The notes under the pieces were generated by a model, which saw only the letters and a list, made by a program, of their open reading frames with translations, was not told the origin of the DNA and searched no databases. From positions 27,043 to 91,042 of the forward strand of contig JAGYJL010000003.1 of NCBI GenBank assembly GCA_018402015.1: 64,000 nucleotides of DNA. The letters run 5' to 3'. The DNA is from Flavobacteriales bacterium (GTDB lineage Bacteria > Bacteroidota > Bacteroidia > UBA10329). The translations under genes and the position numbers were made by a program. Below are positions 39,186 through 47,755 of this stretch, in pieces (positions within the stretch are counted from its first letter, which is position 1; every line of letters starts with the position of its first letter).

Positions 39186-39215
39186 TGTTTAAGAAAAACA
39201 ATAAAAGATTAAACA
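39186..39215. promoter_or_regulatory. TGTTTAA-N16-TTAAACA motif (operator or ECF-type promoter)
   Basis: TGTTTAA 39186-39192, 16 nt, TTAAACA 39209-39215; 50 nt before the DUF4397 start. Confidence 0.6.
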
Positions 39216-39264
39216 AAATAAGTGTTGTTGATGTTTGACCATTAAATCATAAAATCACAACACA

Positions 39265-41698
39265 ATGAAAAATCAAAACTCTTCTCGCAGCACTGCTTGC
39301 TGGCATATCAGCAGCACTGTTGCACAGGCTCAAAACCGCTAGGTTAGAGTAAATTCACACCCGCTGATGCCCTTGCGTCTGTGGTTGACGTGTACGTGAA
39401 TGGCGGAGCAACCCGTTCATTGACGATTTCGCATTCAGAACCAGTACAGGATTCATCGATGTTCCTGCGGGAGTGAATTTGAACATTGGAATTGCGCCTT
39501 CCACTAGTACTGGTCCAGGCGATATTCTATTTACACTCCCAGCAATAAACCTAACTGCCGGTGAAACTTACCTTGCAATTGCCAATGGAATCGTATCTCC
39601 AACTGGATATATGCCGAATTCAACCATGGCTCCTTTCGGTTTGGATATTTTCCTCAACGCAAGAGAAGTTGCTGCAGGAGGTGCTGGAACCAATGATGTT
39701 CTTGTTTATCATGGTGCTACAGATGCTCCAATGGTAGATGTAGACGAATTGAACGTTGTAAGCGGTCAGGCTGTGAATGACCTGTCTTATTCTGAATTCC
39801 AAGGTTATTTGACTCTTGGTGTTGAAGATTACATGCTTCAGGTTCAAGCGGCTGCAAATGGTGCAGCTGTAGCAGCATTTGATGCTCCTTTGGCTACTTT
39901 GGGTGTTGATGGTGCAGCACTTACTATTCTTGCCTCAGGTTTTCTTAATCCTGCCAACAACAATAACGGCCCAGCTTTCGGACTATTTGTATCCACTGGC
40001 GCTGCAGGTCCATTGTTGGCTCTACCAACACCAGAAGCACGTGTGGAGATCATTCATAACTCTGCAGATGCTGCAGCCGCTGTAGTAGATGTATTTGTAA
40101 ATGGAGAAGAGGCAGTTCCGAATTTTGCATTCAGAACATCAACTGGTTTTATTACTCTTCCAGCAGGTATGCCACTTTCTATTGAAGTAGCGCCTGACGG
40201 AGCTGGATTGGGAGGCGCATTGCCTGCAATTGATATTCCATTCCTTGCATCAGGCGAAACGTACATAGCCATTGCGAACGGAATCGTAAGCGGTTCGGGT
40301 TATTCGCCAGCGCCAGCATTTGCTTTAGACATTTATGCTGGTGCACGTGAAGTTGCTTCAGGAGGTGCTGGAACAAATGATGTTCTTGTTTACCATGGTG
40401 CTACAGATGCTCCAATGGTAGATGTAGACGAATTGAATGTTGTAAGCGGTCAGGCTGTTAACGACCTGTCTTATTCTGAATTCCAAGGATATTTGACTCT
40501 TGGTGTTGAAGATTACATGCTTCAAGTACAAGCAGCTGCAAGTGGAACAGCCGTTGCAGCTTTTGATGCTCCATTGGCAGGTCTTGCAATTGACGGTGCT
40601 GCATTGACTATTCTAGCGTCTGGTTTCTTGGACCCATCTGCTAACAACAACGGACCAGCTTTCGGACTGTACGTTTCTTCAGGAGTTGCAGGTCCGTTGA
40701 CAATGCTTCCAATGTCTATGGCCCGTCTAGAGGTGATCCATAACTCAGCTGATGCTGCCGCTGCGGTAGTAGATGTGTTCGTAAATGGAACTGAGTTGAT
40801 TCCAGATTTTGCTTTCAGAACAACCACCGGTTTTATTGATGTACCAGCAGGTATGCCACTTTCTATTGAAGTAGCACCTGACGGAGCTGGATTGGGAGGC
40901 GCGCTTCCTGCTATCAACATCCCGTTCCTTGGCTCTGGAAAAACATATATCGCCATTGCAAACGGAATCGTTTCTGCAACCGGGTACAACCCAAGTGCGA
41001 TGGATGCTCCATTCGGTTTACATATTTACGATGAGGCTCGCGAAGCGGCAACATCAGGCGCAACGAACACAGATATTCTGGTTTACCATGGAGCTACTGA
41101 TGCGCCAACTGTTGATGTTGTAGAAACAGGTTTAGGAGCAGGACTAATTGTAAACGACATTGCTTACAGTGAGTTCAATGCTGACGGGTACTTGGAGTTA
41201 CCAACACAGAACTATCAGTTGGCTATACAAGATGAAACAGGCTCTGTAACTGTGGCAACTTTTGATGCTCCTTTGGAGACCCTTATGACAGAAGGTGCTG
41301 CATTGACCGTTCTTGCTTCTGGTTTCTTAACGCCAGCGGATAACAGCAACGGTGCTGGTTTCGGATTATGGGCATCTCTTGGATCAGGTGGAGCTTTGAT
41401 TCCGCTATCTAATGTTACAGGAATTCAAGATGTAGAATCTATCAGTAACGCAGCATTGTTCCCGAATCCTACAAACGATAATGCAACCATGTTCTTTGAC
41501 CTGGTTGAGGATGAGAACATCAATCTAGAAGTGGTGAACACAATGGGACAGCGTGTTTTTGTAAGAAGCTTTGGTGAGATGCTATCAGGAAATCACAGAG
41601 TTGAGCTTCCTGCCAGCGAAATGGCTCCAGGTTTCTATTTCGTAAACCTTCGCACCAACAATGGTGTTGTATCTACTAAGCTGCAAGTAGTTCGATAA
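39265..41698 (+). pseudogene. DUF4397-repeat secreted protein with T9SS sorting domain; 5' end contains a probable indel patch
   Basis: ARVEIIHNSADAAAAVVDVFVNG units; C-terminus ISNAALFPNPTNDNATMFFDL...GFYFVNLRTNNGVVSTKLQVVR; ORF 39473..41698 is intact. Confidence 0.85.
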
Positions 41699-41711
41699 TT
41701 TCCCGCAGTGA

Positions 41712-41748
41712 CTGGCGTCCCGTTCCGCGAGGGGCGGGGCGCCTTTTT
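41712..41748 (+). terminator. Rho-independent terminator
   Basis: GGCGTCCCGTTCCGCGAGGGGCGGGGCGCCTTTTT. Confidence 0.75.
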
Positions 41749-41759
41749 ATACTCAAATA

Positions 41760-42665
41760 ATGGCAAAGGTTCTCATAACAGGCGGTTCAGGTTCAATAGG
41801 TAGGAGACTTATTCCTAAACTAAAGTCCAAGGGTCACGAGGTTGTAGTTATTGGTCGTTCTCAACATGGCGATTTGGATGTGCCAAGTTTTACATGGGAC
41901 CTTAACAACGGAACCATGGATGAACGAGCATTGAAAGATGTAACGCATATCATTCATTTGGCAGGAGCAGGTATTGCCGATAAGGCTTGGTCTCCAAAAC
42001 GGAAGCAGGAAATAATTGAAAGTCGGGTAAAACCACTTCAATTGCTTGCCGAGGTGTTGAAGAAGCGTAATCAACGAATCGATGCTATCATTTCGTCATC
42101 GGCAGTTGGTTATTATGGAGCTATCACTTCAGAAAAAATCTTCAGCGAAGAAGACGCACCGGCTCAGGATTTTTTAGGTAGCACATGCCAAATGTGGGAA
42201 GAGGCGGTCATGTTGTTCAGATCTGTAGCCGATCGAGAAGTAAGAATTCGCACAGGAATTGTTCTACTGAAAGAAGATGGTGCATTGCAAAAGTTGGCTG
42301 CACCGGTCAAACTCGGATTTGGAGCTGCAATTGGTTCAGGAAAACAATGGATGCCATGGATTCATATAGATGATATGGTAGCAGTTTATTTACAGGCCGT
42401 TGAGGATACAAACCTGAATGGACCTTACAATGCAGCAGCACCAGAACACAACAACCAAACGAATTTTATTAAAAAAACAGGAAAAGCACTCAGACGACCC
42501 GTGTTTCTTCCGCCAGTTCCGGGCTTCCTTATAAAAGCACTTATGGGTGATATGTCCAAGGTGGTCACAGAAGGCTCACGTGTTTCTTCACAGAAAATCA
42601 TCGATGCCGGATTCGAATTCAAATATCCTCAACTGCAAGAAGCACTTAACCACCTATTTCAATGA
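41760..42665 (+). CDS. TIGR01777-family NAD-dependent epimerase/oxidoreductase
   Basis: VLITGGSGSIGRRLIPKLKSKGHEV; SSSAVGYYG; GSGKQWMPWIHIDDMV. Confidence 0.9.
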   Translation: MAKVLITGGSGSIGRRLIPKLKSKGHEVVVIGRSQHGDLDVPSFTWDLNNGTMDERALKDVTHIIHLAGAGIADKAWSPKRKQEIIESRVKPLQLLAEVLKKRNQRIDAIISSSAVGYYGAITSEKIFSEEDAPAQDFLGSTCQMWEEAVMLFRSVADREVRIRTGIVLLKEDGALQKLAAPVKLGFGAAIGSGKQWMPWIHIDDMVAVYLQAVEDTNLNGPYNAAAPEHNNQTNFIKKTGKALRRPVFLPPVPGFLIKALMGDMSKVVTEGSRVSSQKIIDAGFEFKYPQLQEALNHLFQ

Positions 42666-43147
42666 AACTTCACGAACAACGATACACACAATTTTTACCC
42701 ATCTCGCTCGATGAAGCGTGGGATTTCTTCTCGGCACCTCAAAACCTGAACGAGATAACACCAGACGAGATGAAGTTTGAAATTCTTACCAAGGAAATTC
42801 CAAGAATGTACCCAGGTCAGATCATTCAGTATAACGTTACGCCATTTCCGTTTTTTAAAACCGGTTGGGTCACAGAGATCACACATGTATTGGATAAACG
42901 TTATTTCGTTGACGAGCAGCGCTTTGGCCCATACGCCATGTGGCATCATCAACATCATTTCGAAGAGCAGAAAGGGGGAGTACTTATGACCGATATCTTA
43001 CACTACCGTGTTCCACTTGGTATTGTTGGTAAGTTGGTCAATGCGCTTTTCATACAACGCAAGGTTAAAGGCATATTTGAGTACCGTTTTAAGTTACTTG
43101 AGAACAAGTTTGGTAATACTGCGTTAACAGTTAACGAACGAGAATAA
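42662..43147 (+). CDS. SRPBCC-family (ligand-binding SRPBCC) protein
   Basis: LDEAWDFFSAPQNLNEITPDEMKFEIL; overlaps both neighbours (operon). Confidence 0.85.
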   Translation: MKLHEQRYTQFLPISLDEAWDFFSAPQNLNEITPDEMKFEILTKEIPRMYPGQIIQYNVTPFPFFKTGWVTEITHVLDKRYFVDEQRFGPYAMWHHQHHFEEQKGGVLMTDILHYRVPLGIVGKLVNALFIQRKVKGIFEYRFKLLENKFGNTALTVNERE

Positions 43148-44028
43148 TGGGCAAGTACAGCATCAAAGATCTAGAGACGCTATCTGGCGTTAAGGCTCAT
43201 ACAATTAGAATTTGGGAAAAACGATACGGAGTGATAACTCCTGATCGTACTGATACCAATATCCGAACATATTGCGATAGTGATCTGAAAAAGCTTCTGA
43301 ATATTGCGTTGTTGAACAACCATGGTCTCAAGATCTCCAAAATTTCTAAGCTAAAGTATGAAGACCTCTGTCAAGAGGTAGAGAAGCTTGCCATTACAGA
43401 AACATCCTATGATACCTATATCGATAGGTTGATCGTTGCAATGGTAGATCTTGATAGACCAAAGTTTGAGATGTTGATCAGAGAAGCCACAGAAAAAATG
43501 GGTTTCGAAGGAACCTGTATCAACATTCTATATCCATTTCTTCAGAAAATCGGAGTGATGTGGATGGCCAACTCGATCAATCCGGCTCAAGAGCACTTCA
43601 TAAGTAGTTTGATCATTCAGAAAATGTATGTTGCCACGGATCAACTCTATTCTCCTGATGCTAAGGAGAAAAAGGCGATTTTCTTTTTGAGAGAAGGTGA
43701 ATTGCACGAAATGGGTCTCTTGTTCTACCGTTACCTTATGAAGAAACGTGATGTTGAGGTAATTTATCTTGGTCAGTCTGTTCCGATGGTTGATCTGAAA
43801 CAGACAGTTGAAGCCCACAAACCCGATTTTTTGGTAACAGCCCTTGTTGCCACATTGGATGAAGATGCGCTGGATGCTTATCTGAAATCTTTGGCTGAGA
43901 GTTTTCCTAAACAGAAGATCATCGTTTCAGGATATCAGGTAAGTCAATTCAAAAGGCCTGTTGCCAAGAATATTATCAAGGTTGATGATGTGCACCAATA
44001 CATCGATTATATCGACAACAAGATTTAA
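43147..44028 (+). CDS. MerR-family regulator with C-terminal B12-binding domain (CarH/LitR-like)
   Basis: MGKYSIKDLETLSGVKAHTIRIWEKRYG HTH; W-x9-EH (WMANSINPAQEH) and GELHEMG. Confidence 0.88.
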   Translation: MGKYSIKDLETLSGVKAHTIRIWEKRYGVITPDRTDTNIRTYCDSDLKKLLNIALLNNHGLKISKISKLKYEDLCQEVEKLAITETSYDTYIDRLIVAMVDLDRPKFEMLIREATEKMGFEGTCINILYPFLQKIGVMWMANSINPAQEHFISSLIIQKMYVATDQLYSPDAKEKKAIFFLREGELHEMGLLFYRYLMKKRDVEVIYLGQSVPMVDLKQTVEAHKPDFLVTALVATLDEDALDAYLKSLAESFPKQKIIVSGYQVSQFKRPVAKNIIKVDDVHQYIDYIDNKI

Positions 44029-44049
44029 GTAGCTTTTTAGTTTTCTTAA

Positions 44050-44093
44050 CAAAACGCTGAAACCCTTGCTAGTCAAGGGTTTCAGCGTTTTTG
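44050..44093 (+). terminator. Strong rho-independent terminator
   Basis: AAAACGCTGAAACCCTTGCTAGTCAAGGGTTTCAGCGTTTTT. Confidence 0.9.
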
Positions 44094-44101
44094 TTGAAAA
44101 A

Positions 44102-44131
44102 TGTTTAACTTTTTTTAAAAATAGTTAGACA
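44102..44131. promoter_or_regulatory. TGTTTAA-N16-TTAGACA motif
   Basis: TGTTTAA 44102-44108, TTAGACA 44125-44131; upstream of the ECF sigma gene. Confidence 0.6.
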
Positions 44132-44165
44132 ATAATTTGTGTGTTTAAACATTGATACATAGATT

Positions 44166-44195
44166 TGTTCAACAATTAGAAACAACACTTAAACA
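44166..44195. promoter_or_regulatory. TGTTCAA-N16-TTAAACA motif
   Basis: TGTTCAA 44166-44172, TTAAACA 44189-44195; overlaps a degenerate third copy 44142-44171 (TGTTTAA-N16-TTGTTCA). Confidence 0.55.
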
Positions 44196-44204
44196 AAATA
44201 TATC

Positions 44205-44711
44205 ATGTCAGCACTAACATTCAACGACAGACTTCTTAAAATGAGCGATGTGCTAGAGTACTTCGCTCTTAGTCTAACCAAAAACAAAGAAGATGCTCAG
44301 GATCTTCTTCAGGAAACAATGGTAAAGGCCATCACTTACCAAGATAAGTACACGCCAAATACCAATATGAAAGCATGGTTGCACACGATCATGAAAAACA
44401 CCTTTATCAATCAGTATCGTAAGATGAAGCGTGCGAACACGGTCATTACTACCAAGGATGATGTAGACGTGTTGGATTTTGTTCCAGCAGCTTCAGAATA
44501 CACTCCAGAAAGTGTGAGAGCGACAAAGGAAATCACAAAGGTGATCGATGCGTTGGACGACAACACACGAATTCCGTTTACAATGCACCTCAAAGGTTTC
44601 AAGTACAAAGAAATTGCAGAGCACTTGGATATTCCTATTGGAACGGTAAAAAGCCGAATCTACTTTGCCAAGCAATCTTTGATGAAAGATTTGAAGGATT
44701 ACAGAAACTGA
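44205..44711 (+). CDS. ECF-type RNA polymerase sigma factor
   Basis: DAQDLLQETMVKAITYQDKYTPNTNMKAWLHTIMKNTFINQYRK; YKEIAEHLDIPIGTVKSRIYFAKQSL. Confidence 0.95.
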   Translation: MSALTFNDRLLKMSDVLEYFALSLTKNKEDAQDLLQETMVKAITYQDKYTPNTNMKAWLHTIMKNTFINQYRKMKRANTVITTKDDVDVLDFVPAASEYTPESVRATKEITKVIDALDDNTRIPFTMHLKGFKYKEIAEHLDIPIGTVKSRIYFAKQSLMKDLKDYRN

Positions 44712-44778: not shown

Positions 44779-45330
44779 ATGAAAGTAGAACAGGTGATAT
44801 TAGTGAACGAAATGGACGAGGAACTCGGCCTCATGGAAAAGTTGGAAGCACACCAAAAAGGTGCGTTGCATCGGGCTGTCTCTGTGTTCATATTCAATAG
44901 ACAAGGCGAGTTATTGATGCAAAAACGCGCTTCCACCAAATATCATGGTGCTGGTCTTTGGACAAATACGTGTTGTACACATCCACGCGTGGGAGAAACC
45001 AATCTGGAATGTGCACATCGCAGATTGAAAGAGGAAATGGGCTTCGATACTGAGTTAGAAGAGCGCTTCTCATTTATTTATAACAGCGAAGTTGAAAACG
45101 GTTTGATCGAGAATGAATTCGACCACGTTTTCTTCGGAGTATATGAAGGTGATTTCAAACTGAACAAGGAAGAGGTAGAAGATTGTACCTTTACATCGTT
45201 AGGCAATGTATCCAAAGACGCGGATCAACATCCAGAACGATTTTCAATCTGGTTCCGCATTATCCTAGAGAAGTTTAAGGAACACCTATCAGGAATGGAA
45301 CACACGCTACAAAAGGCGGTGGGAGTATAA
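44779..45330 (+). CDS. idi: Isopentenyl-diphosphate delta-isomerase (type 1)
   Basis: NEMDEELGLMEKLEAHQKGALHRAVSVFIFN; WTNTCCTHPRVGE; RLKEEMGF. Confidence 0.95.
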   Translation: MKVEQVILVNEMDEELGLMEKLEAHQKGALHRAVSVFIFNRQGELLMQKRASTKYHGAGLWTNTCCTHPRVGETNLECAHRRLKEEMGFDTELEERFSFIYNSEVENGLIENEFDHVFFGVYEGDFKLNKEEVEDCTFTSLGNVSKDADQHPERFSIWFRIILEKFKEHLSGMEHTLQKAVGV

Positions 45331-45737
45331 TGAAGGTAACAGTTAGCAGAAAGGCGCAGTTCAATGCTGCCCATCGGTTGTATAACCCCAATTGGTCGTT
45401 CGAGAAGAACGATGAGGTGTTCGGCAAGTGCAATAACCCCAACTATCATGGTCACAATTACCAGTTAATTGTCTCGGTAAAAGGAACAATTGACCCCGAA
45501 ACGGGTTACGTAATCGATATGAAGGATTTGAAAGCCTTGATCAAAGAGCATGTAGAAGATGTCTTTGATCATCGCAATTTAAATCTCGACACAGAAGATT
45601 TTAAAGAGTTAAATCCAACGGCAGAAAATATTGCTGTAGTTATTTGGAACAAGCTTCGTCCGCACTTGAAAAGTGAATTGGAGCTAAAAGTGGTTTTATA
45701 TGAAACAGAACGGAATTTTGTTGAATTTGAAGGATAA
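45330..45737 (+). CDS. queD: 6-carboxy/6-pyruvoyl-tetrahydropterin synthase family protein
   Basis: FNAAHRLYN...GKCNNPNYHGHNYQLIVSVKG; DHRNLN; PTAENIAVVIW. Confidence 0.85.
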   Translation: MKVTVSRKAQFNAAHRLYNPNWSFEKNDEVFGKCNNPNYHGHNYQLIVSVKGTIDPETGYVIDMKDLKALIKEHVEDVFDHRNLNLDTEDFKELNPTAENIAVVIWNKLRPHLKSELELKVVLYETERNFVEFEG

Positions 45738-46410
45738 GGATTTCGAAGTGATAGAAGAAGTGGGCGACAACCACGTTGGAACTTCTCTAGAAACACCGAT
45801 GAAGCCGAATGCACACGCCATTTCCGACAAGGAAAAGATGGAGAAGATTGCAGCACATTTCGCTGAGATCATGGACACACTTGGCCTAGACCTAACGGAC
45901 GATAGCCTTAGCGGAACGCCAATGCGTGTAGCTAAAATGTACGTGGAAGAAGTCTTTTCTGGATTGAACCCAAAGAGCAAACCAGATGTGAAGCTCTTTG
46001 AGAACAAGTATAAGTACAAAGAAATGTTGGTGGAGAAAGACATCAAGGTTCATTCTTTCTGCGAGCATCATTTTGTACCGATTATTGGAGTGGCTCATGT
46101 TGCCTACATCAATAAAGGCAAAGTGGTTGGCCTTTCTAAGTTGAACCGTGTGGTGGATTATTTTGCCAAGCGACCACAAGTACAAGAACGATTAACGGTG
46201 CAAATTGCCAACGAACTGAAAGAAGCTTTAGGAACAGACGATGTTGCAGTTCTGATTGACGCAAAGCACATGTGTGTTTCTTTACGAGGAGTTGAGGATA
46301 CAACAAGTAGTACTGTTACTGCTAGTTATGGTGGTTCGTTCCAAAACGAAGAGACAAAAAAGGAGTTCTTACAGTACGTCTATTTCGAGATAATGAAAAA
46401 TGAAGAATGA
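45700..46410 (+). CDS. folE: GTP cyclohydrolase I
   Basis: TPMRVAKMYVEEVFSGL; HSFCEHHFVPIIGVAHVAYI; KHMCVSLRGVEDTTSSTVTASYGG. Confidence 0.95.
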   Translation: MKQNGILLNLKDKDFEVIEEVGDNHVGTSLETPMKPNAHAISDKEKMEKIAAHFAEIMDTLGLDLTDDSLSGTPMRVAKMYVEEVFSGLNPKSKPDVKLFENKYKYKEMLVEKDIKVHSFCEHHFVPIIGVAHVAYINKGKVVGLSKLNRVVDYFAKRPQVQERLTVQIANELKEALGTDDVAVLIDAKHMCVSLRGVEDTTSSTVTASYGGSFQNEETKKEFLQYVYFEIMKNEE

Positions 46411-46469: not shown

Positions 46470-47755
46470 ATGATTAAAAGAAGTTTCCATTTTTTTTGGT
46501 TTAGGCGCGATGGCGCTTGGATGACAATGCAGCATTGTATCACGCGCTGCATTCAGGAAAACCAGTACTTCCTATTTTCATTTTCGATGAAGATTCTCTC
46601 AAAACTGGAAACAAGCGATAAAAGGGTTGATTTCATTCACAGAACCTTGACAGAACTTAAATCGGAACTCAAAAAGTTGGGTTCTGATGTGGTTTTTTCA
46701 TGGAACTCCCTTTTCGGGTTTACAGCTGATTTCAATAGAAGTCAAATCGTTTTACGAATCATGATTATGAGCCGTACGCACAAGAACGAGATGCTGAAAT
46801 TGTTGCACTGCTTGAATGATAAAGGTGCTTCATTTCAAACGTTCAAAGACCAGTGCATTTTTGAGAAAGACGAAGTGCTTAAGGATGATGGCAAACCATA
46901 CACTGTTTACACACCTTATTCGAATGGAAGGCTAAGCTGAACGCGTTTTATCTCAAGTCTTATCCTACAGAAAAGTACTTCAGTAACTTTCTGAAGTTCC
47001 AAGCCGACAGTTTTCCAAGCTTAGAAGAAATGGGTTTTGAGAAAACAGATGTTTCTATTCCTTCTGCGGATTTTGAACTCAGCATTATCAAGAATTACCA
47101 CAAGACGCGAGACATCCCAAGTCTTTCGGGAACATCTCGCTTGAGTGTTCATCTCCGGTTCGGTACAATTAGCATTCGAAAACTGGCGAAGTTGGCGTTG
47201 GAAACGAACGAAAAGTTCTTGAACGAACTCATTTGGCGCGATTTCTACATGATGATTCTATGGCATTTCCCACATGTGGTTGAAGGTGCTTTCAGGCCAG
47301 CGTACGATAAAATAGAGTGGGAGCATAACGAACAACATTTTGAAGCCTGGTGCAAAGGCGAAACTGGCTATGCGATAATTGATGCTGGCATGCGCGAACT
47401 GAATGAAACAGGTTTCATGCACAACCGTGTTCGGATGATCGTAGCTAGTTTTCTTACTAAACATCTATTGCTAGACTGGCGTTGGGGAGAAGCCTATTTT
47501 GCTGAAAAACTGCTTGATTTTGAACTTTCGAGCAACAATGGTGGATGGCAATGGGCTTCTGGTTCGGGTTGCGATGCTGCTCCGTATTTCCGCGTGTTCA
47601 ATCCGTACTTGCAAACCGAGAAATTCGACCCACAGTTGAGATACGTTCAAAAATGGGTTCCTGAGTTTCAAGAGCTCACTTATCCGCAGCCAATAGTAGA
47701 TCATAAGTTTGCCAGGCAGCGCGCCATTGATAGGTACCAGAAGGCGTTGAAATAA
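46470..47755 (+). pseudogene. Cryptochrome/deoxyribodipyrimidine photolyase family protein; frame breaks near 46510-46950
   Basis: FHFFWFRRD; ELIWRDFYMMILWHFPHVV; GMRELNETGFMHNRVRMIVASFLTKHLLLDWRWGE; NNGGWQWASGSGCDAAPYFRVFNP. Confidence 0.9.

Follow-up and report, generated by a model that had tools for sequence, protein, structure and literature searches.

The two-part motif TGTTTAA-N16-TTARACA in the intergenic gap between a carH gene and an ECF sigma factor gene of a Flavobacteriales bacterium very probably serves as operator for CarH, the B12-dependent photoreceptor encoded next to it, which would repress the ECF gene in the dark. The geometry of the dyad, its conservation, its linkage to CarH and its overlap with a promoter are established by comparative sequence analysis. 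As far as gene neighbourhoods tell, the same exactly spaced dyad marks light-related genes across many Bacteroidota, and its layout is unlike that of the CarH sites known so far.

The window, i.e. the whole stretch of 64,000 nucleotides that was analysed, belongs to a draft genome of 3.08 Mb in 208 contigs. Two dyads lie in the carH-ECF gap (Table 1), and a sequence-only reading of this DNA had placed both at the correct coordinates, but had overlooked a perfect copy upstream of the genes leading into carH. The letters it quoted for a third copy at 44142-44171 are present; TTGTTCA, however, is no match to TTARACA, and this N16 site was dropped in favour of the palindrome TGTTTAAACA as the actual unit. 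A TnnACA element is present in each half-site (TAGACA at 44126, TAAACA at 44146 and 44190, plus the mirror TGTnnA). The density of the motif is well above chance, and the whole genome contains one further copy, located upstream of a DUF218 (YdcF-like) gene (G000:C176:32782-32811).

Table 1 Features of the carH-ECF locus (window positions)
Feature	Position	Strand	Description
Perfect CarH dyad TGTTTAA-N16-TTAAACA	39186..39215	.	Putative; upstream of DUF4397-SDR-SRPBCC-carH; retained at this gene in relatives of the genus
GTT box	39233..39235	+	Putative ECF-type -10; 18 nt past dyad 39186-39215
DUF4397/T9SS-tail surface protein (start disrupted), SDR and SRPBCC genes	39473..43147	+	Leading into carH; gaps short or overlapping
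CarH-type MerR/B12 photoreceptor-repressor gene	43147..44028	+	293 aa; Pfam MerR_1, B12-binding_2, B12-binding; PDB 5c8d match; ligand motifs
Strong hairpin with U-rich 3' side	44046..44097	+	After carH; likely intrinsic terminator; MFE -31.8 kcal/mol, z=-9.35
Extra degenerate half-site TGTTGAA	44092..44098	+	10 bp upstream of dyad 1; uncertain
CarH operator dyad 1	44102..44131	.	TGTTTAA-N16-TTAGACA, in carH-ECF gap; putative
-33 element TTTG	44136..44139	+	Putative, of primary-sigma promoter; read from sequence; 20-nt spacer to -7 box
Palindrome TGTTTAAACA	44142..44151	.	Between -33 and -7 elements; extra half-sites
Primary-sigma -7 box TAGATTTG (TAnnTTTG)	44160..44167	+	Predicted transcription start near 44172
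CarH operator dyad 2	44166..44195	.	TGTTCAA-N16-TTAAACA; overlaps -7 box and transcription start; putative
ECF sigma factor gene	44205..44711	+	168 aa; Pfam Sigma70_r2, Sigma70_r4_2; presumed direct target
idi (Nudix) - queD (PTPS) - folE (GTP cyclohydrolase I)	44779..46410	+	Pfam

On the basis of its domains and ligand residues the window protein is filed as CarH, and its operator as a variant not described before. The MerR helix-turn-helix, the four-helix B12-binding_2 and the Rossmann B12-binding domains are all matched by Pfam (the last with a score of 28.7 vs. a cut-off of 32.1, E 1e-6), and the closest solved structures are those of Thermus CarH, 3whp and 5c8d (E=1.9e-18 for 5c8d). The W-x9-EH motif that caps the adenosyl group, WMANSINPAQEH in the window protein, is found in 57/57 homologues, and the lower axial histidine (ExH, here ELHEMG) in all homologues inspected except L234 (EMQ). 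The DNA-binding wing region reads RTDTNIRxY in the Bacteroidota proteins vs. RTPGGHRLY in Thermus CarH, a difference that may be tied to the different operator geometry. Downstream of carH, the hairpin that folding reveals, and that a consensus terminator scanner did not list, likely keeps the transcription units of carH and ECF apart; the ECF gene is thus expected to have its own promoter. The genes idi-queD-folE, whose order is identical in genus relatives, probably continue the ECF operon, judging by gap lengths, and DUF4397, SDR, SRPBCC and carH probably form one operon as well.

The geometry of the motif was analysed in 35 carH-ECF gaps from relatives that had been selected by protein only, ignoring the motif, with an inverted pair being defined as TGTTTAA/TTAAACA with one mismatch per half and a start-to-start register of 23 bp. 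At least one inverted pair at exactly 23 bp is present in 34 of the 35 gaps, bearing out the expected conservation upstream of orthologous ECF genes, and 56 pairs in total stand at this register, where shuffled gaps gave about 0.08 pairs for any one register. Inverted TGTnnA/TnnACA pairs likewise occur at one register (57 pairs, 24 bp from TGTnnA start to TnnACA start), and when the spacer of exact pairs was left free between 6 and 30 in ten genomes, 47 of the 75 pairs listed had a spacer of 16, the others being thinly spread. The dyads are often paired, 42-44 or 62-66 bp apart, i.e. four or six helical turns. Same-orientation pairs gave no direct-repeat signal in the gaps (5 at 11 bp, 0 at 22 and 2 at 33, with a background of 2.8), so that a search for tandem 11-bp direct repeats revealed no enrichment at any of these distances.

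In Flavobacterium, the -7 consensus TAnnTTTG is located at -12 to -5 (PMC9723704), from which the start site in the window was predicted; E. coli-type promoter matches near the gap were discarded as Bacteroidota use TTG/TAnnTTTG. The TAnnTTTG box is found in 31 of the 35 orthologous gaps vs. 7.9 in shuffles, and in most gaps it overlaps a dyad or sits close to one, mostly at -6, +4, +15 or +48 relative to it, i.e. in steps of roughly one helical turn. The dyad thus keeps a constant face relative to the promoter at variable distance, as expected for a repressor site and not for a pair of promoter elements.

We then consider the distribution of the motif among 389 Bacteroidia genomes, some of them incomplete assemblies, in which the presence of CarH and ECF was set by thresholds. 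The exact motif is present in 189 of 247 CarH+ vs. 15 of 142 CarH- genomes (Fisher 6e-39, genomes being taken as independent here and in all survey counts except the within-family test). Its copies number 378 vs. 30 for a reversed control pattern in CarH+ genomes and 17 vs. 10 in CarH- genomes, the reversed pattern staying at background in both alike. Within families having both CarH states the association holds (Mantel-Haenszel OR 14.8, p 6.5e-13). Moreover, the motif occurs in 38 of 42 CarH+ECF- genomes, with 2.6 copies each, vs. 5 of 52 CarH-ECF+ genomes, with 0.1 copies each, which is near chance. Allowing one mismatch per half, the dyad was found upstream of none of 20 ECF homologues in CarH- genomes, whereas it precedes 11 of 19 in a mixed set of CarH+ genomes, including several whose genomes do not have the exact motif; other loci of this set contain more degenerate N16 pairs by eye, e.g. 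TGTTGAG-N16-CTAAACA. The one relative in the window genus that has no CarH is devoid of both the ECF gene and the motif. The exact motif is missing from 58 CarH+ genomes, at least some of which keep degenerate dyads (several, by eye). In one genus of CarH+ genomes (L225-L232, f9) the N16 dyads in front of the ECF gene are for the most part degenerate, and exact-motif counts therefore underestimate the operators.

The sequence-only reading had left open whether the motif is a CarH operator made of inverted half-sites or an ECF-type promoter. The former is strongly supported by the co-occurrence with CarH, also within families, by the abundance of the motif in CarH+ECF- genomes and by its absence in front of ECF homologues from genomes lacking CarH. 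In the latter, the two halves would be the -35 and -10 elements through which the ECF sigma factor activates its own gene, which would agree with the location upstream of ECF genes and with a 16-nt spacer that suits the -35/-10 spacing of ECF promoters. Such a promoter, however, is expected regardless of CarH, and the motif follows CarH, being present in genomes that have no such ECF gene; in addition, the dyad symmetry is perfect, and a -7 box of primary-sigma type, overlapping the dyad, is retained in front of the ECF gene in several phased positions. We therefore reject self-activation via this motif as highly improbable, while a weaker form may hold at non-ECF targets, with the right half-site serving as ECF -35 and a GTT 17-18 nt downstream. 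Still less can be said for chance repeats in AT-rich intergenic DNA, to which we assign practically no probability: the region is indeed AT-rich, and the 10 window matches with up to two mismatches (3.0 expected), most of which are the same sites counted on both strands, were reached in 1 of 100 shuffles, but class-wide conservation at a single register, with reversed-pattern controls at background, refutes this explanation.

It is improbable, too, that the dyad is the site of another DNA-binding protein that co-occurs with CarH. The link between motif and CarH is one of co-occurrence, the motif marks carH-linked promoters and known CarH sites do not look like a 30-bp inverted repeat, all of which would be compatible with a different protein; yet no second regulator was seen to be conserved next to the dyad, carH itself is a target, the TnnACA half-site fits CarH and the association persists within families. 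Many MerR proteins act as activators, and CarH, as a member of this family, might activate from the dyads, some of which, i.e. dyad 1 of each pair, lie upstream of or distant from the promoter. Against this, in most gaps dyad 2 covers both the start site and the -7 box, a location that fits a repressor, and the characterised CarH and LitR proteins are repressors (PMC9304148, PMC9758184), so that we regard activation as having a similarly small probability as a foreign binding protein.

If the dyads are CarH operators, the genes adjoining them outline a light regulon. These comprise ECF (even when unlinked to carH), carH, crtI (phytoene-desaturase-like, recognised by eye from the N-terminal sequence), rhodopsin, blh (beta-carotene dioxygenase), photolyase and DPRP, as well as queD, folE, SRPBCC, flavin reductase, a TetR_C_23 regulator, DUF4397, fasciclin, DUF218 and DUF1295; in two genomes two dyads lie between divergent rhodopsin and blh genes. 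Secreted proteins with fasciclin domains (one called by Pfam scan, the rest by similarity or eye) recur beside the dyad in distant genomes (L187, L188, L191, L196, L202, L205, L118, L125), which suggests that they are light-controlled surface proteins. In three genomes without ECF (L194, L201, L206) the dyad stands at the TetR_C_23 regulator, which may serve there as second tier in place of ECF.

A GTT exactly 17 or 18 nt past the dyad is found at 18 of 32 non-ECF targets in ECF+ genomes vs. 3 of 34 in ECF- genomes, two of these three matches being the TGTTTAA of the next dyad. The pattern was spotted by eye first and counted afterwards, and GTT at 17-18 nt ranks first when all trinucleotides and offsets are scanned. 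These targets look like ECF-type promoters in which the AAC of the right half-site would be the -35 and GTT the -10 element. The carH operon, with its GTT box behind the dyad at 39186, may thus itself be ECF-driven and CarH-repressed, forming a feedback loop.

Binding of CarH to the dyads, its dependence on light and B12, and repression are the steps that we infer. In the dark, CarH loaded with adenosylcobalamin would occupy both inverted-repeat dyads around the primary-sigma promoter of the ECF gene and thereby block this promoter; in the light, breakage of the Co-C bond of the cofactor would release CarH and induce the ECF-idi-queD-folE operon. Via the dyad at 39186 CarH would also control the DUF4397-SDR-SRPBCC-carH operon and hence its own synthesis. 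For a second layer in ECF-containing genomes, in which the ECF sigma factor would drive the GTT targets while CarH covers their -35 element, we see about an even chance, and the same holds for its classification as a coherent feed-forward loop. The combined picture, i.e. a previously undescribed way of DNA recognition by Bacteroidota CarH with facing half-sites 23 bp apart, pairs of dyads around the promoter bridged or looped by a CarH tetramer, the ECF feed-forward loop, and fasciclin and DUF4397 proteins in the regulon, is tentative and falls slightly short of even probability as a whole.

In light-induced ECF circuits such as CarQ of M. xanthus and LitS of Streptomyces, light frees or induces an ECF sigma factor that drives further genes. 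The path from light signal to ECF sigma to further genes would be shared here, but CarH seems to act directly as repressor of the ECF gene and, in addition, of the presumed targets of ECF. Characterised CarH operators (Thermus thermophilus, Bacillus megaterium, Myxococcales) consist of three to five tandem 11-bp direct repeats nnnnTnnACAn; they resemble the dyad in regulator family, in TnnACA, which is contained in TTAAACA, in the overlap with a housekeeping-sigma promoter and in light/carotenoid targets, whereas their tandem repeats contrast with the inverted pairs at one register seen here (PMC9304148). The sites of the class II LitR proteins PplR1 and PmlR2 of Pseudomonas, TGTACA-N12-TGTACA, bracket the promoter, the first site lying at -35 and the second between start site and ATG (PMC9758184). 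They thus share two-part sites with TGT/ACA ends and the placement of two sites around a promoter, but span 24 bp overall with N12, compared to the 30 bp of TGTTTAA-N16-TTAAACA; moreover, class II LitR proteins are believed not to bind B12 (PMC9758184), whereas the window CarH retains both B12 domains and the ligand residues.

In a literature search on the motif and on CarH in Bacteroidota, largely without subscription journals, we found no description of the dyad motif and no report on light control of fasciclin and DUF4397 surface proteins, and a study of light induction in Chryseobacterium did not find a known regulator (PMC7064467). Light control of carotenoid, rhodopsin and photolyase genes in non-photosynthetic Bacteroidota is not worked out in the literature searched. 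A class-wide operator, present in about three quarters of CarH genomes, can serve as a signature when genomes are searched for the light regulon; it points to new targets (rhodopsin/blh, fasciclin, DUF4397, DUF218) and supplies simple DNA probes. Its inverted geometry puts the head-to-tail direct-repeat model in doubt as general CarH binding mode.

Several minor observations concern the genes themselves. The start of the DUF4397 gene appears to be frame-disrupted in the window (39265-39480; the ATG at 39265 runs into a stop, the N-terminus of relatives is intact), by assembly error or as a pseudogene, and a photolyase at 46470-47755 is seemingly split into ORFs 46470-46940 and 47030-47755, the second of which matches the photolyase domain; this, too, seems to be an assembly error or a broken gene. 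Some carH homologues contain internal stop codons (G116:C45, G227:C150, G143:C7, G254:C20), possibly reflecting recent loss. Within the genus, at carH-ECF loci such as L019, L050, L054 and L056, the ECF sigma factors share 90-95% identity and the CarH proteins only about 58-64%. Finally, record CAMCFW010000026.1 (L019/L053), labelled Chryseobacterium gleum, matches a genome of the window genus (G007), i.e. its label seems to be wrong.
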